Shown one piece after another: positions 1-34,526 of a stretch of 64,000 nt of DNA. Under the pieces are notes generated by a model. It worked only from the letters and a program-made list of their open reading frames with translations, was not told where the DNA came from and searched no databases. Position numbers and translations under genes: made by a program. Source of the stretch: Tardibacter chloracetimidivorans (GTDB taxonomy: Bacteria; Pseudomonadota; Alphaproteobacteria; Sphingomonadales; Sphingomonadaceae); NCBI RefSeq assembly GCF_001890385.1, contig NZ_CP018221.1, positions 3,025,501 through 3,089,500 on the forward strand, read 5' to 3'. The first letter of the stretch is position 1; every line of letters begins with the position of its first letter.

Positions 1-696
1 ATAGCGGGTGAGCTGACGCACCTCGGCGCGGAGCTTCTTGGTCAGCGTCTGGTTGGAGGTGGAATGGGTGATCTTCGGCCCGGTGTTGTCGGTCGCGCCA
101 AGCGTCCCAACAAACGCGCGGTTCCGCCACCAGCTATTGCCTGCGCGATCGATGCCGCCGGTGAAGCCCGAATTCGGGTTCACGGAGATGATCGACGTGA
201 CGCCAGCGAACACCTTGGACGACTGCGTACCGTCGCGCCAAAGGATCTCGTTGAACGAGCGGGCCGAACCTTCGGAAAGATCGTCCAGCTTGTCTTCGAG
301 CAGGTTGGTGATCGCCACCTTTTCCGCATCCGTATGCATGGTGGTGTTTTCGCCATTCAGGCTGTCCACCACGCTGATGCCAGCGTGCTTCAGTTCGGTC
401 AGCGTCATCGCGATACCGGAATGCAGTTCCTTCCAGGGGAAGTTGGTCTGCTTCAGGTTCGCCGGGTTGACGTAGCTCACGGTGTCATCGTGGCTGTAGC
501 CCTGAAAGGCCGAGCTATATTCGCCCTTCACATTGCGGCGAATATCGTTCTTGCCACCAGGGAACGTCTTCTGGCTGCGCTTCATGGCGTCATAAAGCGG
601 GCGGCCCTGAATGGACTGCGCCATGGCCGGGCCTTTGATGTAAAAGTCCAGCGTGGCGCTTGCGATGTTATCAAGCTCTTGAGCGGTAAACGGCAT
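1..696 (-). CDS. Phage major capsid protein, C-terminally cut by window edge
   Basis: 232 codons are visible without a stop and the gene continues past base 1. A strong ribosome site (GAGGAGG) lies 6 bases before the ATG at 696, inside the stop region of the scaffold gene. The visible protein contains a segment with FTGGIDRAGNSWWRNRA around residues 190-206, a motif I recognise from coat proteins encoded next to a portal and scaffold. Position after TerL, portal and scaffold supports the call. The exact capsid family is inferred from gene order and partial motif memory, not from a search. Confidence 0.8.
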   Translation of the reverse strand, partial: MPFTAQELDNIASATLDFYIKGPAMAQSIQGRPLYDAMKRSQKTFPGGKNDIRRNVKGEYSSAFQGYSHDDTVSYVNPANLKQTNFPWKELHSGIAMTLTELKHAGISVVDSLNGENTTMHTDAEKVAITNLLEDKLDDLSEGSARSFNEILWRDGTQSSKVFAGVTSIISVNPNSGFTGGIDRAGNSWWRNRAFVGTLGATDNTGPKITHSTSNQTLTKKLRAEVRQLTRY

Positions 697-706
697 GATT
701 GCCTCC

Positions 707-1735
707 TCAACGGGTCAGTGCCGCATCGACCACATCCCGAATTGAATTCGGGGTGGCCGTTGCGCGTGCGGACAATCCGGCTGGGCTGGCAGCGACCGGC
801 TTCGGCTTGGGCGCGAAAACCTTCAGGTTATCGTTCACCTCGCGGTAGGCGCGATCGACAAGGGCAACGGCTTCATCGCGGTTCTGGGGTCGTTTTCCGT
901 CCCGCGCGACAATCGCCAAAGCCTGTGTCTCGACCAGCTTGGCCTTCTTCGCGGCATAGTCCGGATCCTTGGCCTTGATCCCGTCTTCCCACTGCTGCAC
1001 GGCGGTCGCCATATCGGTGGCAACGCGCTGTGTTTCGGAAGCCCTGCGGGTTTCCTCGTCCTGCCGGGTGCGTTCGGCCGTCTTGGTTTCGAGATGCGTG
1101 CGCTGCGAGCGCTCGCGCGCCAGCTCCTTCGCAAGCACCTCATCAACCAGACCGTCGTTGACCTTCTGCTGAAGATCATCCGGCAGAGCCTCCCCCAGAT
1201 GCTCGTTGAGCGACTGGAGGCGTTCAGCAAACCAGTCCCGCGCCTTTGTGAGATTGCCCATGTCACCGCTCTTGAGCAGCGCCATGATCTCGAAACCTTC
1301 CGCGACTTCCGGACCAGTCAGCCCATTGGCGTCCATGAACCCGGTAATCTTGCGGTAGTTTTCGGCCTCCGGTCGAAGCGCGTTACGCTCCTCGATGACG
1401 GCCTTCCAGCGTGGGTGGTTGTGGAAAGGGACATCAGCCTCGGCTACATCCTCGACTTCTTCGGCTTTCGCCTCATCGGTCTTGGCTTCCGATCCTTCCG
1501 CCGCTTCCGAGGTGGACGATTCCTCTTCCGCCGGTTCCTTCTTATCGACGACGCCTTTGACGACATCGAGAAGATTGGTCGGCTCCTGCTTAGCGTCCGT
1601 ATTGTCCGCGTTGGACGATTCCGCGGAGTTAGCGTCCTCATTCGACACCTCTACGCCCGTGTCAGTCACCTGATCGGGTGCTTTGGTGTCTTCGTTTTCC
1701 GAAGCGGGCGAGGCTTCGGTTGACTTCAAGGTCAT
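707..1735 (-). CDS. Phage head scaffold-like protein
   Basis: 342 residues lying between portal and capsid genes, the usual place for a scaffold. The first 110 residues are strongly acidic and low-complexity (Glu, Asp, Ala, Ser, Thr), followed by a charged helical middle with many Arg/Glu/Gln and a short basic C-terminus. This composition is typical of internal scaffolds that are removed during head maturation; the C-terminal basic part would contact the coat. No catalytic protease motif is visible. The stop codon lies in the ribosome site of the capsid gene, so the two are probably translationally linked. A repressor-type near-palindrome lies 35 bases before its start. Confidence 0.7.
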   Translation of the reverse strand: MTLKSTEASPASENEDTKAPDQVTDTGVEVSNEDANSAESSNADNTDAKQEPTNLLDVVKGVVDKKEPAEEESSTSEAAEGSEAKTDEAKAEEVEDVAEADVPFHNHPRWKAVIEERNALRPEAENYRKITGFMDANGLTGPEVAEGFEIMALLKSGDMGNLTKARDWFAERLQSLNEHLGEALPDDLQQKVNDGLVDEVLAKELARERSQRTHLETKTAERTRQDEETRRASETQRVATDMATAVQQWEDGIKAKDPDYAAKKAKLVETQALAIVARDGKRPQNRDEAVALVDRAYREVNDNLKVFAPKPKPVAASPAGLSARATATPNSIRDVVDAALTR

Positions 1736-1769
1736 GGTTTAGCGCCTTTCTGCAAGTTGCGTTGTATCA

Positions 1770-1790
1770 TGTTGATCGTCAAAATCAACA
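1770..1790. promoter_or_regulatory. Near-palindromic operator site, copy in late genes
   Basis: TGTTGAT, 7 bases (cgtcaaa), then ATCAACA: a perfect 7-bp inverted pair. It lies between the end of the extended portal frame and the scaffold start, in the only untranslated gap there. Same 7-7-7 layout as the sites at 7137, 11630, 11996, 14616, 27232 and 34391. Confidence 0.6.
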
Positions 1791-1791
1791 A

Positions 1792-2046
1792 CTAGCCCAT
1801 GCCACCGGGTATCTGGTTCGGCTGGGGGCCATTGTTGAAGTCTGCCTGCGTCCGGCTACCGGGCTGGGATTGCTCACCAGTCTGATCGCCGCCCTTGTCG
1901 CCCTGGGCATCCGGATCGTTCGCGGGATCACCCGTGGACGGCCGCGCCATGGCATTCTGCGCCACGATCGACGGCAGGCCGTCAATGAACGCATCCTCGA
2001 TCTGCGTGTCATCGTCCGCGATCTTGACCGCGCGCTCCGCCAGTCA
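1792..2046 (-). other. In-frame continuation of the portal gene beyond UGA
   Basis: After the portal's UGA (2046-2044) the same frame stays open for 83 further codons to a TAG at 1794-1792. The encoded text reads on smoothly as LAERAVKIADDDTQIEDAF and then a Gly/Gln/Pro/Asp-rich tail ending in GGMG. Such polar tails are common at portal C-termini. The residues before the stop (ISPR) and after it (LAERAV) fit ISPR-W-LAERAV, so UGA most simply replaces UGG (Trp). No start codon or ribosome site suggests an independent gene. Either a nonsense mutation, a sequencing error or stop-codon readthrough explains it. Confidence 0.75.
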
Positions 2047-3900
2047 GCGCGGCGAAATGCCCGGAACCTGCACGAGAAGCGGGTACATACGCTCGAAGGT
2101 CGCCGCATCCTGCGCCTGATTGGGCCGGCCGCTGGAGCCCGCCTTGATCTCCAGACCGACCTCCTGCATCATTTCCGACCGCGAAAGCTCCGGCCAGACT
2201 GCGCCGGGGCCGGCAATGGCCATCACGGTTTCCGTCGACAGGTTCATCAACATGATCTGCCCAGCCGCGCGCATCACGGCGGTCAGCACATCGTCCAGGC
2301 TGTCGCTGTCCAGGCTGATCGAACTGTTCTGGCTCGACTGCGCGATGGAACTTTCGGTTGCCGTGCCATTGGCAATGCCGCCGATATTGGCCTGCTGAAT
2401 GCCGACGACGCGCACCATGTCATTGAACATGGATTCCGTCTCGTACAGGTTCGGATCGACGCCAATCTTGTTCACGGGCGAGATCAAGTCAGACGATTTA
2501 ACGTTATCACGCATCGCCTTGATAATAATGACGTCATGCGCCGCATGGCCGGCCAGGTTCTTCTGGTCATCCTCATCGAACTGCCCGTCGGGCGCCAGAT
2601 AGAGCGGCCGGTTTGCAATGCGATGCTGCCGCAGGGCCTCCTTCGCCCGGTTATATTCGAGCTGGATATGCTTCAGCAATTCGACGTCGGACTTCGGGAA
2701 CAGTTCGCACTCGTTTTCCGTCTCGTTGAAGGTGACGGCCCAGATCGGGAAGAATTGCTCGACCTGAATGGCCGGGCTGCCAGGCTCCTGCAGAAAGTCG
2801 GGATAGCCGTCGGCAATCACATATTCCAGACCGGTGTCACGATCATAGACATGCCAGACGCACGCCAGCCCTTCGCCGGTCTTGGCATAGGGCGAGCCGT
2901 TGGCCATGCCATAGGACTGCTTGGCCGCCCCCCATGGGGTGCTGTTCGACACCTTGTAGGCCGCATAGTTCTTGCCGAGATCGACGCCATAGACCTCCTT
3001 CACGCGGTCGGGCGTCAGGATCACTTCTTTCGCCAGCCAGTTCGAACCGACCCAGCCGATCAGCGATTGCGTCTCCGGAGAAGGGATGATCCGCGTCGAC
3101 TGCGGGAAGTTCCAGAGCAAGCCCTCGCGAATGATGACTTCCGGCTCGTTCTCGATCGCCTGTATCGCCAGCCGCAGTTCCTCCGCCTCGGCGGAATAGG
3201 TATCCGTTTCGCCGTCCTGAATATCGGCTTGCAACCGGCCAATGGTGGCAAGGCGTTCCGTCATGTCCGAAATGCGCGTCGACTGATCGTCGGACAGGTC
3301 CATCTGCCGCTGGAAGCCCAGCTCAATGTAGCCGACGCCGGTTGTCCGGGCGCGCCGGATCATCTGCTTCATCTGGGTTTTGAAGTCCGGGATCTGCTCG
3401 CTCATGTAATACTGGATCAGCACCTCCAGCGTGCGGCCGACCTTATCGAGCATGCTCCGGCGCTCGACGTTCTGCTGGATGTCCTGAAGGATGGAGATCG
3501 ACTGAAGATCAGGCGGAACGCCTTTCTGCGTCGCAACTTGCATCGCCATCATCGCCATTTGCAGCGTTTCCGGCTTGCCGTCCCAGACCGCGAAGTCCAG
3601 CCGCTCGCGGCGCCGCGCGATGACACGCGGGTTCTTGGCGTAGAGCGACGCCACGGACGATTTCAGAACGCGCTGGACGATATTCGCCTTGTACCGATCG
3701 TCGTCCTTTTTCTCGTTCGGCCATTGCTTGCCGGACGCGAAATCCATGTTCTCGCGCATCCGCTTGAAATCGTCTTTCCAATGCTCCTTGGCGTGCTTGA
3801 CCTTCTGCTGCCACTGCTGGACAAGCGCGCGCCGGCTATCGCCGGGTTCCGGGTCGTCCCGCACCATGCCGCTTTTGACCGCTTCTTCCAGACCGTCCAT
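2044..3900 (-). CDS. Phage portal protein, ended early by in-frame UGA
   Basis: 618 residues to the UGA; 702 if the stop is read through. It starts with an ATG that shares bases with the TAA of the large terminase (TAATG). The N-terminal part has long basic helices (residues 10-60), followed by a conserved portal-like region with LYAKNPRVIARRRER and a middle with many Tyr/Trp/Asp, as expected for the dodecameric ring through which DNA enters the head. It sits between TerL and the scaffold. Identification rests on gene order, size and general character. The truncation would remove the polar C-terminal barrel or crown region, not the ring core. Confidence 0.82.
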   Translation of the reverse strand: MDGLEEAVKSGMVRDDPEPGDSRRALVQQWQQKVKHAKEHWKDDFKRMRENMDFASGKQWPNEKKDDDRYKANIVQRVLKSSVASLYAKNPRVIARRRERLDFAVWDGKPETLQMAMMAMQVATQKGVPPDLQSISILQDIQQNVERRSMLDKVGRTLEVLIQYYMSEQIPDFKTQMKQMIRRARTTGVGYIELGFQRQMDLSDDQSTRISDMTERLATIGRLQADIQDGETDTYSAEAEELRLAIQAIENEPEVIIREGLLWNFPQSTRIIPSPETQSLIGWVGSNWLAKEVILTPDRVKEVYGVDLGKNYAAYKVSNSTPWGAAKQSYGMANGSPYAKTGEGLACVWHVYDRDTGLEYVIADGYPDFLQEPGSPAIQVEQFFPIWAVTFNETENECELFPKSDVELLKHIQLEYNRAKEALRQHRIANRPLYLAPDGQFDEDDQKNLAGHAAHDVIIIKAMRDNVKSSDLISPVNKIGVDPNLYETESMFNDMVRVVGIQQANIGGIANGTATESSIAQSSQNSSISLDSDSLDDVLTAVMRAAGQIMLMNLSTETVMAIAGPGAVWPELSRSEMMQEVGLEIKAGSSGRPNQAQDAATFERMYPLLVQVPGISPR

Positions 3901-5540
3901 TACATGCCCCTCAAACTGGCCGCGATCCGGCGTTGGCGATCACGAAAACTGGCGTCCCGCTTGACCCATGCGAGCGTTCCCACACGCGGCCCCTTGAACG
4001 CGGTGTCATTGGCGGGTGCGGCCCGGATAATCCGGTCCAGCCCCAGACCCATGTGCGCCAGGGCGTCCACGAAATCGTCATGCCGCGCCTGCGGAAACTT
4101 CAGCAATTCCTGCCGGGCGTCCTCGAACCACGGTTCGAACATCGGGAAGCGCACCATGCCCATCGACATGCGGCCCTGGATCGATTGCGCGCGCGTCACC
4201 TTGTCCTTTGACGGAACCTGCTCGGACACGTTCACGTAAACCCGTTCTTCCTGCATCCGCTTGAACAGGAACGGGCCGATCGACTTGGAGATGTGACCGC
4301 TCTCCGCCCACCAGATCAGGGGCTTCCACTTCTTCATCAGCGAGATCATCGCGTCCACGGTCGCGTCGGTCTTCATCCGCTTCCAGACGGTATCCAGCAC
4401 CCAGATGCGATGCTGATCGTCGACACCGACCACCAGAAGGCAGGTCCGGTCATGCTCCTGCTTGGTGCCGACGGCGTGGTCACTCGCGGCGTAGATCCGC
4501 AGGCTTTTCGGTGCATCGCCGGCCCGATAGGTCCGCACCATGTCCGACGTGAAGAAATCGCCGTCTTCGGGCGTCGGCTGCTGCTGATAGAGCGCACTGA
4601 AACCCTTCGGGTTGGTCCGCTTGAAATTGTTGAGATATTCCAGCCCGAACCGCTCCGGCCATAGCGGCTCGCCCGCCTTGCGGCCCAGCACGTCATTGTC
4701 CCGTGCGATAGCCGGTATGTCGATGATCTTCCATTTGGAGGCTTCTTCGCCGTCATAATGGGGGTTAGTCGGATCGGTGATCCGGCCAACGAGATCGTCT
4801 TCGTGCCAGCGGGTCTGAATGATGATCATCGCGCCGGTGTCGGACATGAAGCGCGACTTGATGTCGTTCTGATACCATTCCCAAAGCTGGTCGCGGATGG
4901 TCTGGCTCGATGCCTCCTGGCTGTTCTTGATCGGATCGTCGATGATGATCAGGTCCGCGCCGCGGCCTGTGATCGTGCCGCCCCGCCCCAGAAAGAACAG
5001 CGCACCACCTTCCTCGGTCTGAAGCCGATCGGACGCGGCGGAGCCCTTGCGCAACGTGACGCCTGGGAAAATCTGCTTGTAGCTGTTCGACTGCATGACG
5101 GCGCGCACGGCGCGGCCATAATCATCGGCGAACGGCTGGTTATAGGTGCAGACCGCGACATTGCGATATGGATCGCGACCGACATACCACGCCGGGAAGC
5201 GCTTGCCCGCAAGCTCGGTCTTGCCGTGGCGCGGCGGGAAAGTGATGATCAGCCGCAGTATCCGCCCGGCTTCCACCTCTTCCAGCGCGGCGGCCAGCGC
5301 CTTGTGGAAATACTGCGGATCATAGCGGCTCTGCTCCGCATCGTCCGGTTCCTCCGGATGCGGCATGGTGAACCGGGTAAAATCAATCACGCTTTCCCTG
5401 GAGCGCTTCGCGCACAGCAGGCGCATCGCCATGCGACGCTGCCGCTGAAGATCCGTCTGCTGCTGGATACGCTCCTGCTCCGCCTGTTCTTCCGGCGTTA
5501 GCTGCGGCGCTTCCTGTTGCTTGGTGGGCTTGCGCGCCAT
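3900..5540 (-). CDS. Terminase large subunit (DNA-packaging ATPase and nuclease)
   Basis: 546 residues. Walker A motif PPRHGKT at about 102-108, Walker B LIIIDD ending at about residue 202, then a coupling motif QTRWHEDD. The C-terminal half holds the RNase H-like nuclease region with Asp in YAASDHAVG and in HDDFVDALAH. These match Terminase_6-type packaging motors that pump phage DNA through the portal and cut concatemers. I chose the ATG at 5540, which overlaps the preceding stop as TGATG, over an upstream in-frame ATG inside the previous gene. The small subunit is not adjacent but 5.6 kb upstream. Confidence 0.93.
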   Translation of the reverse strand: MARKPTKQQEAPQLTPEEQAEQERIQQQTDLQRQRRMAMRLLCAKRSRESVIDFTRFTMPHPEEPDDAEQSRYDPQYFHKALAAALEEVEAGRILRLIITFPPRHGKTELAGKRFPAWYVGRDPYRNVAVCTYNQPFADDYGRAVRAVMQSNSYKQIFPGVTLRKGSAASDRLQTEEGGALFFLGRGGTITGRGADLIIIDDPIKNSQEASSQTIRDQLWEWYQNDIKSRFMSDTGAMIIIQTRWHEDDLVGRITDPTNPHYDGEEASKWKIIDIPAIARDNDVLGRKAGEPLWPERFGLEYLNNFKRTNPKGFSALYQQQPTPEDGDFFTSDMVRTYRAGDAPKSLRIYAASDHAVGTKQEHDRTCLLVVGVDDQHRIWVLDTVWKRMKTDATVDAMISLMKKWKPLIWWAESGHISKSIGPFLFKRMQEERVYVNVSEQVPSKDKVTRAQSIQGRMSMGMVRFPMFEPWFEDARQELLKFPQARHDDFVDALAHMGLGLDRIIRAAPANDTAFKGPRVGTLAWVKRDASFRDRQRRIAASLRGM

Positions 5541-5758
5541 CAGAACTTCATGCCCTTGGCCGCGCCATAGGCGGCAAGCGCCAATATCGCGCCGATCGCA
5601 ATTTTCTTGATCCACGCCCAAAGCCCGCGGCCAAGGTCATTATAGAATTCATCGGTCAGTTGTTGGCGCAGTTGGAAGACAATCGCCTGGACATCCTGAT
5701 CGGACAGCGTTCGGCCGCCCTTGGGCGGCTCCGGCGGGAAATGATCGGTGTCGCGCAT
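5540..5758 (-). CDS. Small phage membrane protein
   Basis: 72 residues: a hydrophilic N-terminal half, then one hydrophobic segment (about 48-68, AIGAILALAAYGAAKG) close to the C-terminus. It overlaps its neighbours on both sides by TGATG junctions, between tail fibre and TerL. Location and single membrane span would suit a lysis accessory protein or virion membrane protein, but no lysis motif is seen. Function unknown. Confidence 0.7.
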   Translation of the reverse strand: MRDTDHFPPEPPKGGRTLSDQDVQAIVFQLRQQLTDEFYNDLGRGLWAWIKKIAIGAILALAAYGAAKGMKF

Positions 5759-7157: not shown

Positions 7158-7433
7158 AAGCGCCCACACAAGCAGGGCCGCGCTGGCGCCGAAGATTGCC
7201 GATGCCAGGTCCAGAACGTCGTCCTGCTCCCAACGCCGGCTGAACGGGTTCCAGTCCGACCACGGGCGGCCGGGGGCAGACCAGTCCTTTGACTTCTCGC
7301 CGGCTTCCTTCGCCCAGAAAAACACCAGGGCGATCGTCCAACCGGCGACCGGGCTGAAGGCCAGGCCAAAGACCACGGTGATCAGAGCCGCGAGCGCGGC
7401 GTGCTTGAGCCAATTCATCATCGTTCCGTTCAT
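7152..7433 (-). CDS. Phage membrane protein, two predicted spans
   Basis: 93 residues with two hydrophobic segments (about 11-42 and 72-92) around a polar loop rich in Trp and Arg (PGRPWSDWNPFSRRWEQDD). The start overlaps the stop of the 895-residue gene as ATGA; a second ATG four codons in is also possible. Size and topology would fit a holin or a virion membrane protein. No endolysin is visible in the window to support a lysis cassette, so the role is open. Confidence 0.7.
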   Translation of the reverse strand: MNGTMMNWLKHAALAALITVVFGLAFSPVAGWTIALVFFWAKEAGEKSKDWSAPGRPWSDWNPFSRRWEQDDVLDLASAIFGASAALLVWALC

Positions 7434-10117
7434 GCTGAAAACCCCACGAATATGCCCACCGATGTCATGGATCCGTTTCCCACCGCGATCCCACCGCCTC
7501 CCCCGCCCCCGCTGACCGTCGGCGCGAAGAACGTCTGCGTATTCGTGACCAATGCCGGTGCCAGCGCGTAGGTGGCTGTCACCGCAGGCGCGTGGAAGGT
7601 CTGGCTATTGGTGAACAGCGAAGGGGTTAGGTCCTGGGCGGCCACCAAGTCAGTGGCGGCCAGGTTGTCCCAGTGGTAGCCGGTCGCATCGCCCGGAGTG
7701 CCGCCCGAATTGCGGAAGCCAACCTTGCCCGCTGGAGTGATGTTGTTGGCCGTAGTCGAGCACTTCAGAACGCCGTCGACGTACAGCCGCTTGGTGCCGT
7801 TCCGGACCTCCGCCTTCAGATGGTAGGACGTGCCAGCCGACAGCGTGGCACCCGACGAATTGTTGTTCGTGAACGATCCGCTGACCGTGTGGCCTATCGT
7901 CCAGCCGGTGCCGTTCAGCCATCCGAAAACGACGTAGTTGGTGCTGTCCTGAATCCGCGCGGCAATGAACGCGCTTTGCGTGATCGTGGTGTGGACATAG
8001 AAATCGGCTTCGATATCGTATTCCGCAGCGGCAGGCGTCCATTCGTTCTGGACAACCACCGTGGAGGTGTTCGCCCTGATACGGTTGCTGGCGATAACGA
8101 AATTGCCGGTGAGCGCGGTCCATGCTTGGCCGCTGTCGGCGTTCCGGGCCGTCAGCAGCGTGCCGTCGGTCGCCGTGAAGGTGTCGTTAAGTGCCATGCT
8201 GCCTCCTGTCACCGGCACGTCAAGCGCGGCAGGGTCGGTGAGATCGGTTGGTGTGGTTGCGGTGAAGGTCCAGCTTCCGGTTCCCGTACCGGCGTCGGTC
8301 GCCGTGACCTGTCCTGAGTTTTCACCCGCTGGAATGGTGATCTGATAGGTGCCGGTGTTTCCGGAAGCGCCGCCTTCGGTGAGGGTAATGACTAGATCAA
8401 CACCACGCACCGCAGACACATCGTCTTCGTCCAGAAGGTTCGCGGTGATGATGACCGAGCCGTCCACTTCAACGGATGAGACTGAAGCCGAGAGCGTGTA
8501 TTTCGTGGCGTAGGGCAGCGCGAGGTTCCACCCGCCGTCCGGATAAAGTGCGGTCGAATAGCTGTTGTCGGAGAGCTTCGCGGGGCCGGTCGGGTCAGGC
8601 GAAAGGGCAGCTTTCAGAGCGGCAATGATCGCGTCGGTATCGGCGCTTGTGTAGTCTATCGTCGAAAGCGCCGCGTAATCCTGAAACACCAGCGAAGGGT
8701 CGTAGGCTGCCTGCACTCCGCCGCCGCCCATTGCGTAGCGCCGCCATTCAAGGATGCCGTCTCCCAGCGTCACCCCCGTGAGGGTTCCGCCGACGTTGTT
8801 GCCAACCCACACGCGCTCAATGGTGACAGCGGTATGGGTGTTGACGAACCGGACCCAAGGCTCTCCCCCACCCGCCCCCGCATCGGTGTAGGAATCGCCC
8901 CATGCGGTTGCCGTGGAACTCATCCCCGGAAACACGGTCTGGTTGATTGAGGTGAGGCAAGCGACCTCAAGATTATCGCCGCGATTGATCATCGGCGAAT
9001 AGCCTTCGTTGGCCATCACCGAGACGATGTTCTTCATCACGCCGGGGCCTTGGACCGACGTTCCCGATTGGGTGGTGCAGCTTGCCGTGCCATCGGCATG
9101 GACCAGCCATATGCGCTGCATATCCGGCGCGACCGCGATGTTGTCTGAGAACTGAATGAAATCGACGTGATCCTGATCAGGATAAACTGCATTCGACGTG
9201 TCCCGCATCGGGGACATGAAGATGAAATCGTGAAGCGTGAAGCTATCAGAACTGGTCTGAGCGCCGTTCGAGGTGAAATAGCGCGCCTTGCCGCCGTAGA
9301 CCTTCAACGTGTTCGGCGCTGCGCCGAAGGCGTTTGCAACCCACGTCATGTCCGCGTTGCGGACGGTGAACTCGCCTTCAAGCGTGAAGTAGATGTAAAT
9401 CCCGTTCGCGGTGTTCTCCACCTCCCCGGCAGGCCCGCGAATGATCGGATCGTTGATCTCGACCATTGTCGTAACATCGGTGCCGTTGAAGTCGTTGCGG
9501 ATGAAATAGTGCCCGCTCGACCCTGAAGCCCTGTCAGTGATCGTGTACAGATTGTTGTACTTGACGTAGCTGCTATCCCGGTGCCGCACATAATAGATCG
9601 GTGCCGGGTAGTCGTTATCCTCGTTCGTGATGATATGGTAATTGGTGTTCGAAGCGGTCGTGTTGTGAAGACTGACCAGCAGGCTTGTGACCTCGAAACC
9701 AGTAGCAGCGCGGGCAACCTCAGCCGTCTTGCCACAAAGCGTCGTAGAATTCGACGCCCCTCTCGCCGCCGTCCAGTCGGACTGTGCCGATATGGTGTAG
9801 GTATCCGCCCTGATATTGATCGTCAGGACGCAGGTGCCCGAAGTCCCGTCGCCATTCGTCGCGGTGACATTGAAGACATAAGGCCCGCCATTGAGATCGG
9901 CCGTATCGCCCGTTGACGTAGGCGTTGGAAACGTCCCATCCGTCGGTGTCGTCCAGTGCCCCGAAGTCCCCGATGTAAGCGTGATGCTCCATGAAGTCGG
10001 AGTGGAAGATCCCACCGCAAGCAGCATGAACCCGAGATCGACAAGCCCACCGTCCCCGGCAATGGTCAGCGCACCGCGATATGCAGTGTGGCTGGATACG
10101 AGGACGGGCGCGGCCAC
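7430..10117 (-). CDS. Large tailspike-like or virion decoration protein
   Basis: 895 residues starting at a GTG with AGGTAA upstream. Composition is Gly/Thr/Ser/Asn-rich with few Lys and Cys, as in beta-rich virion proteins. Residues about 1-105 look like an Ig-like beta domain. The central part (about 105-480) has many short beta-type stretches typical of right-handed beta-helix tailspikes. Residues about 540-640 form another Ig-like domain with GENSGQVTATDAG, and about 650-835 look like a concanavalin/LamG-type carbohydrate-binding domain. A Gly run occurs near the C-terminus. It could recognise or degrade surface polysaccharide; no catalytic triad can be assigned by eye. Confidence 0.7.
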   Translation of the reverse strand: MAAPVLVSSHTAYRGALTIAGDGGLVDLGFMLLAVGSSTPTSWSITLTSGTSGHWTTPTDGTFPTPTSTGDTADLNGGPYVFNVTATNGDGTSGTCVLTINIRADTYTISAQSDWTAARGASNSTTLCGKTAEVARAATGFEVTSLLVSLHNTTASNTNYHIITNEDNDYPAPIYYVRHRDSSYVKYNNLYTITDRASGSSGHYFIRNDFNGTDVTTMVEINDPIIRGPAGEVENTANGIYIYFTLEGEFTVRNADMTWVANAFGAAPNTLKVYGGKARYFTSNGAQTSSDSFTLHDFIFMSPMRDTSNAVYPDQDHVDFIQFSDNIAVAPDMQRIWLVHADGTASCTTQSGTSVQGPGVMKNIVSVMANEGYSPMINRGDNLEVACLTSINQTVFPGMSSTATAWGDSYTDAGAGGGEPWVRFVNTHTAVTIERVWVGNNVGGTLTGVTLGDGILEWRRYAMGGGGVQAAYDPSLVFQDYAALSTIDYTSADTDAIIAALKAALSPDPTGPAKLSDNSYSTALYPDGGWNLALPYATKYTLSASVSSVEVDGSVIITANLLDEDDVSAVRGVDLVITLTEGGASGNTGTYQITIPAGENSGQVTATDAGTGTGSWTFTATTPTDLTDPAALDVPVTGGSMALNDTFTATDGTLLTARNADSGQAWTALTGNFVIASNRIRANTSTVVVQNEWTPAAAEYDIEADFYVHTTITQSAFIAARIQDSTNYVVFGWLNGTGWTIGHTVSGSFTNNNSSGATLSAGTSYHLKAEVRNGTKRLYVDGVLKCSTTANNITPAGKVGFRNSGGTPGDATGYHWDNLAATDLVAAQDLTPSLFTNSQTFHAPAVTATYALAPALVTNTQTFFAPTVSGGGGGGGIAVGNGSMTSVGIFVGFSA

Positions 10118-33116: not shown

Positions 33117-33428
33117 ATGCGTCTGCTCACCCAGGCCGACGTCGCTCTGGTGTTGAAAGTGTCGGTTAAGACGATCAGCCGCCTCCGACAAGCCGGGGAA
33201 CTGCCATATATTCCCGGCAAGCCGGTGCTGATCAGGGAAGCCGATCTCGAAAAATATGTGGAAAGGAAATTGACATGCCGCGCAAGAACCGCGGGCCATA
33301 TATCGACACGAACAAGCACGGCATCTACGAAATCAGATGGACCGAGCATGGACGATCTCGCTGCCGCTCGACAGGCACACAGGATTTTCAGCAAGCTCAA
33401 AAGATCCTCGCGAACTTTATCCTCCTGA
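33117..33428 (+). CDS. Excisionase-like MerR/HTH_17 protein
   Basis: 103 residues. Residues 1-50 (MRLLTQADVALVLKVSVKTI; SRLRQAGELPYIPGKPVLIR; EADLEKYVE) form the DNA-binding domain of HTH_17 excisionases that direct integrase towards excision. The remaining 50 residues are Ser/Arg-rich and run 154 bases into the integrase gene in another frame; this tail may be a by-product of the overlap. AGAGG precedes the ATG. Confidence 0.75.
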   Translation: MRLLTQADVALVLKVSVKTISRLRQAGELPYIPGKPVLIREADLEKYVERKLTCRARTAGHISTRTSTASTKSDGPSMDDLAAARQAHRIFSKLKRSSRTLSS

Positions 33429-34366
33429 AAGACCGGGATGACGCCATGCCTTCGGCCAATGGCAATGGCCCGCTCTTGGTCAAGGAAGCCGTCGGCGATC
33501 CGGAGGAAGGTAGCGACGCGACAGCCAGCTACTGGCACGAGCATGTGTTGCGCAACGTCATCGGCGTGGACACGCAGCGCTATGCCGCGCGCAAGATCAA
33601 TCAGCACTTCGGCCATCTGGCGATTCGGGACATCCAGCAATCCGATATCGACGCCTATATCGATGCGCGCAGGGCTGGGCGGCTGGGGCGGCCGTCAAAG
33701 GATGGAACGATCGCGCGCGAACTGCCGGTGTTGACGGCGGCGATCAACCACGCCATCCGCAACAAGCGACTCTCGGCCGATGACGCGCCGAGGTTCAAGC
33801 TGCCTCCGGCATCCGATCCCAAGGACCGTTGGTTGGCACACGAGGAAGCCGACCGGCTGCTGGCGGCCGCGCTGCAAAGCCCTGCGCCCAAGGGCAAGCT
33901 GCCACGCATCTACAAGTTCGTTGTGCTGGCTCTGGCGACGTGGAGCCGGAAGACGGCGCTGGTGACGCTGCGGAAGGATCAGGTCGATCTGGCTAACCGC
34001 ATGATCTATCTCAACCCGCACGGCCGCCGGCAGACGAAGAAGCGCCGGCCGCCTGTGCCGATCGCCGATTGGGCGCTGCCGATCATCACCAGAATGATGG
34101 ATGAAGCCGATGGCATATATCTGCTTGGCGATATCGGATCGATCCGCACGGCATTCGCGAGCGCGACGAAGCGCGCCAATCTGAAAGGCGTGACGCCGCA
34201 CACGCTCCGGCACACCGGCGCCACATGGGCCGCACAGGCCGGGGTGTCACTGGAAGACATTGGCGGCGTGCTGGGCGATGACATCCGGACGGTCTATAAG
34301 ACCTATCTGCACCACTGCCCGGAGCATCTTCGGAAAGCGGTCAACGCGATCAGAAAGGCGGCGTAA
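33275..34366 (+). CDS. int: Tyrosine integrase
   Basis: 363 residues. N-terminal arm-binding part (about 1-60), SAM-like core-binding part (75-175) and catalytic domain. Catalytic residues visible: Arg in TWSRKTALVTLRKDQ, Lys in GRRQTKKRRPP, HTLRHTGATWA (H-x2-R), GDDIRTVYKTYLHHCPEH with Tyr as nucleophile (KTY or VYK). It recombines attP with the tRNA-Ala attB, and sits directly beside the attachment fragment. GGAAATTGAC precedes the ATG. Confidence 0.93.
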   Translation: MPRKNRGPYIDTNKHGIYEIRWTEHGRSRCRSTGTQDFQQAQKILANFILLKDRDDAMPSANGNGPLLVKEAVGDPEEGSDATASYWHEHVLRNVIGVDTQRYAARKINQHFGHLAIRDIQQSDIDAYIDARRAGRLGRPSKDGTIARELPVLTAAINHAIRNKRLSADDAPRFKLPPASDPKDRWLAHEEADRLLAAALQSPAPKGKLPRIYKFVVLALATWSRKTALVTLRKDQVDLANRMIYLNPHGRRQTKKRRPPVPIADWALPIITRMMDEADGIYLLGDIGSIRTAFASATKRANLKGVTPHTLRHTGATWAAQAGVSLEDIGGVLGDDIRTVYKTYLHHCPEHLRKAVNAIRKAA

Positions 34367-34481: not shown

Positions 34482-34526
34482 ATGGCATTGTAGAGGTCAG
34501 GGGTTCGATCCCCCTCGGCTCCACCA
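34482..34526 (+). other. Prophage attachment site: 3' fragment of tRNA-Ala(GGC)
   Basis: The 45 bases start in the anticodon loop (ATGGCAT), continue with the 3' anticodon stem strand TGTAG, then the variable loop, the T-arm AGGGG-TTCGATC-CCCCT and the acceptor CGGCTCCACCA. The upstream sequence does not supply a D-arm or the 5' anticodon strand (CTATC instead of CTACA), so this is not a full tRNA. It is the duplicated att core left at this end of the prophage. Confidence 0.85.

Follow-up and report, generated by a model that had tools for sequence, protein, structure and literature searches.

A probable recent nonsense mutation at a conserved tryptophan codon in the portal gene of a Tardibacter chloracetimidivorans prophage

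The portal gene of a prophage in Tardibacter chloracetimidivorans is interrupted by an in-frame UGA. Most probably, this UGA arose by a recent single-base substitution at a conserved Trp codon, which is UGG in the nearest relatives, in a prophage that otherwise looks intact. The window analysed was a stretch of 64,000 nucleotides (G000:C1:3025501-3089500) from a 3.79-Mb genome in five contigs. The portal frame starts with ATG and runs for 618 codons to the UGA, with C as the next base. Beyond it, a further 83 codons remain open up to a UAG, and the interrupted frame described by the first-pass annotation was confirmed. Coordinates of the features are collected in Table 1. Opposite the portal gene, an 853-aa open frame was seen on the other strand (1678-4239, +). 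Similar antisense frames face the portals of some relatives (L003, L005), and such frames are probably a by-product of G+C-rich coding.

Table 1. Features of the prophage within the window (window coordinates).
Feature	Coordinates	Strand	Remarks
Major capsid protein gene, start; open, continues left of the window (L014)	1..696	-	Matches the frame so annotated in OP028995
Open gene separating the portal and major capsid protein genes	707..1735	-	No PHROG or Pfam match
UAG stop of the portal frame	1792..1794	-	Falls where the relatives' frames end
Portal C-terminus past the UGA, 83 codons	1795..2043	-	Predicted helices 617-628, 634-637 and 645-652, then a low-confidence G/Q/P-rich tail
In-frame UGA	2044..2046	-	Trp (UGG) in 71/93 relatives listed that span it, stop in none
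Portal gene including the UGA	2044..3900	-	618 aa under table 11
Terminase large subunit, open; stop overlaps the portal start	3900..5621	-	PHROG
Prophage integrase, open	33275..34366	+	PHROG match
attR, 45 bases	34482..34526	+	Same sequence as the 3' part of tRNA-Ala(GGC) at the opposite end of the prophage

The identity of the portal protein was assessed by sequence, structure and gene order. It matched PHROG 156 (portal) weakly (E 4.9e-4); a Pfam search with it returned no family, and a sequence-profile search of solved structures found nothing. The annotated portal of Microcystis phage Mae-Yong1326-1 is 41% identical to the window protein and the protein adjoining the terminase of Rhizobium phage RHph_N65 is 40% identical, both with homology over most of the length. 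A structural model built from 94 sequences, with Trp read at the UGA, reached a pLDDT of 74 and a pTM of 0.72 (an earlier model from 10 sequences was poor, with a pLDDT of 47, and was left unused). Portals were its best structural matches: Foldseek placed the N4 portal first (E 4.7e-15), with VIA-align the Pan3 portal scored Z 24.3 and a P22 portal Z 21.9, and the portal of GP4 also shares the fold. The gene lies between the terminase large subunit and capsid genes, the order expected for a portal. Among the sequences compared, the in-frame UGA at residue 619 was found in the window's gene and in one identical IMG/VR record only. Across the 8,900 bases compared, this record (L002) does not differ from the window; because it may derive from the same assembly, it does not count as independent confirmation of the UGA.

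For the codon comparison, the read-through protein was searched against 104 loci, from which eight were excluded beforehand: three records of the same prophage (L001, L002, L018), two stretches of the same genome (L014, L015) and three duplicates (L012, L013, L058). All 96 remaining loci matched the portal; L007, L010 and L011 reach a contig edge before residue 619, leaving 93 relatives that span the codon. The second viral scan contributed the best 80 of 197 relatives to this set, and because the 93 include near-identical contigs, they do not represent 93 independent events. The genome-contig search gave no matches with the single portal protein and eight with the portal alignment. Two partial portal matches at 26% came from a plasmid search and were not used. 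When 197 genomes (including this one) were searched for the portal, a match was found in this genome alone.

The site of codon 619 carries Trp in 71 of the 93 relatives listed, encoded by TGG every time; Phe stands there in 18, Pro in three and Ala in one. A stop occurs at the site in none of the 93. The five closest listed relatives that span it (L003, L004, L005, L006 and L019; 65-69% identity) all have TGG. The first-pass annotation had proposed an alignment to see whether Trp is conserved here, and it is, in all five of these and in most of the listed relatives. Past the site, 88 of the 93 continue for 68-167 sense codons to their own stop (83 in the window), and the other five run into a contig end after 15-81 codons. 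The 83 codons that follow the UGA match, in frame, the C-terminal ends of the 93 homologous portals listed. Within alignment A3, N649 (89/89 rows), G667 (89/89) and G670 (88/88) are invariant and S644 is nearly so (88/89). The in-frame alignment with these relatives, including invariant and near-invariant columns, makes the downstream codons more than a chance open frame. Two observations that the first-pass annotation had named as contrary to an interrupted portal gene, namely relatives ending naturally at this position and a lack of similarity downstream, were both looked for. No listed relative ends at the site, so a natural portal end there was rejected, and the downstream codons proved to be homologous.

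Since the relatives, including the five closest with TGG, have no stop at the site, the portal UGA is derived: a conserved codon has changed, by one base from the likely ancestral UGG. Among the sequences compared, the UGA is specific to this prophage. A stop replaces a sense codon, and no similar stop is present among the listed relatives. Of the possibilities raised by the first-pass annotation, a nonsense mutation in the prophage is therefore the one that gains support, from the conserved Trp, the homologous tail and the absence of a stop in the 93 relatives listed.

The age of the change was judged from the divergence of the tail. Over codons 620-655, a mean of 0.35 of sites differ between the window and its five relatives. 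The value for the other pairs of relatives is 0.33 (nine of ten pairs, omitting the very close L019/L006) or 0.31 with that pair included. The portal body (20-618) gives 0.29 for the window pairs and 0.29 for the nine pairs, and the last stretch (656-697) gives 0.50 for the window pairs versus 0.45 for the nine; the two tail comparisons comprise 36 and about 42 sites, and slight decay would escape notice. The dN/dS ratio decides no more, since synonymous sites are almost saturated, the body having a dS of about 1. The portal tail is without visible decay, and the change therefore looks recent.

The rest of the prophage was examined for further damage. Two att repeats, identical at 45/45 bases, lie about 49 kb apart (L014:5539-5583, corresponding to C1:3011039-3011083, and window 34482-34526). 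The repeat is the 3' part of tRNA-Ala(GGC), and the prophage sits in that gene. ARAGORN found one tRNA-Ala in L014 and no tRNA within the window. Integrase, helicase, primase/polymerase-like and exonuclease genes of the prophage were matched by PHROG. The gene between the portal and major capsid protein genes is, by its position, a possible scaffold gene. An 895-aa prophage ORF (7430-10117, -) has no PHROG match. In the window and L014, every terminase, capsid and tail-region gene with relatives in the set is open, and the stops in four sense-strand virion-gene alignments fall before the gene start or are the gene's own stop. Of these compared genes with relatives in the set, the portal gene alone is broken by an in-frame stop within its homologous part. 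Judged by its sequence, the prophage otherwise looks intact.

These observations bear on the main alternative, itself rather unlikely, in which the UGA stems from an error of sequencing or assembly and an intact portal gene in truth has UGG here. The recorded codon is a single base away from the TGG of the five closest listed relatives spanning the site. The tail shows no visible decay, a single broken gene among open virion genes also fits a single wrong base call, and the genome assembly seems to miss some regions (see below). Against such an error, no scattered errors were seen in the virion genes compared, and the window contains no N and the genome is in only five contigs, which suggests good raw quality but is not proof of it. 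A prophage broken in one gene and open elsewhere is in itself plausible. We infer that the base is real and that a recent nonsense mutation is present.

With a real UGA, termination would yield a 618-residue portal lacking its last 84 residues, that is, the C-terminal part of the crown and the low-confidence tail. In the model, helix 594-611 is succeeded by another predicted helix (617-628), and residue 619 sits close to the start of the latter, in a part of moderate confidence (block means 72 and 66). In the structural alignments, model residue 632 pairs with P22 residue 562 (9jga) and 653 with PaP3 residue 595 (7sz4). Several rows reach model residues 632-653, and other P22 rows end at 588. 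By extrapolation from the model, residue 619 would lie near P22 residue 550, which we take to be in the crown region, before the barrel. The lost part holds residues that are invariant in the alignment, and the 618-residue portal would be expected to be impaired.

It is very unlikely that the truncation is tolerated or selected, whether as a working short portal or as a loss favoured in a domesticated prophage. The precedent is P22 dif1, likewise a C-terminally shortened portal, of which the last 50 residues (676-725) are dispensable (PMC4992974). The window portal differs from the dif1 case in that it would lose 84 residues rather than 50 dispensable ones, with the loss starting nearer the N-terminus; by the extrapolation above, it would start well before P22 residue 676. 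The invariant residues in the lost part also argue against a tolerated loss, as does the finding that none of the 93 listed relatives has such a short form.

Programmed readthrough of the UGA, giving two functional portal forms of 618 and 702 residues, was the other possibility raised by the first-pass annotation, and is extremely unlikely. The frame past the UGA is open and conserved, C follows the UGA, and a tRNA-Trp (CCA), a potential misreader of UGA, is present in the genome. Common descent explains the openness of the frame. The stop is not conserved among relatives: they keep the frame and, as listed, have a sense codon at the site in every case. The RNA around the UGA has no unusual fold (-68.5 kcal/mol versus -70.7 for shuffles, z 0.56), with 145 of 200 shuffles folding at least as well; UGA readthrough can, however, operate without RNA structure. 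Promoter and terminator scans near the portal gene gave nothing useful. The C after the UGA, which the first-pass annotation had taken as favouring readthrough, is an ordinary context in this genome: it follows the stop in 23 of 86 UGA-ended ORFs of at least 150 aa, counted as mechanical ORFs in the window, L014, L015 and 31 further stretches of the same genome, with a few ORFs counted twice where stretches overlap (L108/L109, L131/L014) and with the whole of L014 assigned to the prophage side. The A1 protein of Qbeta is made by UGA readthrough with Trp at a rate of about 1 in 15 (PMC8067240). The likeness to A1 lies in a UGA which, if misread, would give Trp. The window case differs in that its UGA is not conserved and nothing seen points to selection for two forms. 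With the UGA found in this prophage alone among the sequences compared, with no stimulatory fold and no suppressor tRNA found, and with an ordinary context, natural readthrough into two portal forms was rejected as the main reading; it appears to have little support beyond the open frame. Equally improbable is a mixed portal ring of mostly 618-residue and a few 702-residue (UGA-to-Trp) subunits that would tune packaging or keep the prophage near-silent until readthrough rises. Under the preferred reading of a nonsense mutation, occasional misreading of the UGA by tRNA-Trp would insert the ancestral Trp, and full-length portal may persist in small amounts. Such misreading would be generic leakiness and not a programmed switch.

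That UGA is read as Trp, or terminates weakly in this host, owing to a missing release factor 2 is barely conceivable. The idea arises from the assembly, in which prfA was found and prfB was not; in a set of 30 genomes that includes this one, 28 have prfB above the cut-off, the other exception being G120. In G006, the amidase gene amiC is the second gene upstream of prfB, and it too is absent from the present genome, the sole miss in a set where 19 of 20 genomes have a match. The penicillin-binding protein encoded between amiC and prfB gave only partial matches of 32-33%, a result without a control in other genomes. The assembly looks incomplete, because amiC, a close mrcA, tRNA-Asn and tRNA-Ile were also not found in it, and the absence of prfB is most likely an assembly gap. 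A 16S search of this genome likewise returned nothing, a weak result given that its control was positive in only 9 of 14 genomes. UGA is moreover the main stop of the genome, ending 67 of 91 host-side ORFs of at least 150 aa (mechanical ORFs, counted with the same overlaps between stretches as above). The start of prfA overlaps the UGA stop of the preceding ORF, presumably histidyl-tRNA synthetase. No tRNA with a UCA anticodon was present among the 37 tRNA places found by ARAGORN in this incomplete-looking assembly. One match above the cut-off to the tRNA-Sec family (C1:281760, L130) was discarded, since ARAGORN reads it as tRNA-Ser with anticodon tga. A recoded genome was rejected, with UGA as its main stop and no UCA tRNA among these 37 places.

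The portal UGA most likely represents an ordinary kind of event. Where a prophage gene has an open frame past a stop, a recent mutation or a wrong base is the first thing to suspect, and comparison with relatives quickly settles the direction of such a change. If the base is real, the prophage is predicted to be impaired in DNA packaging even though it looks complete.
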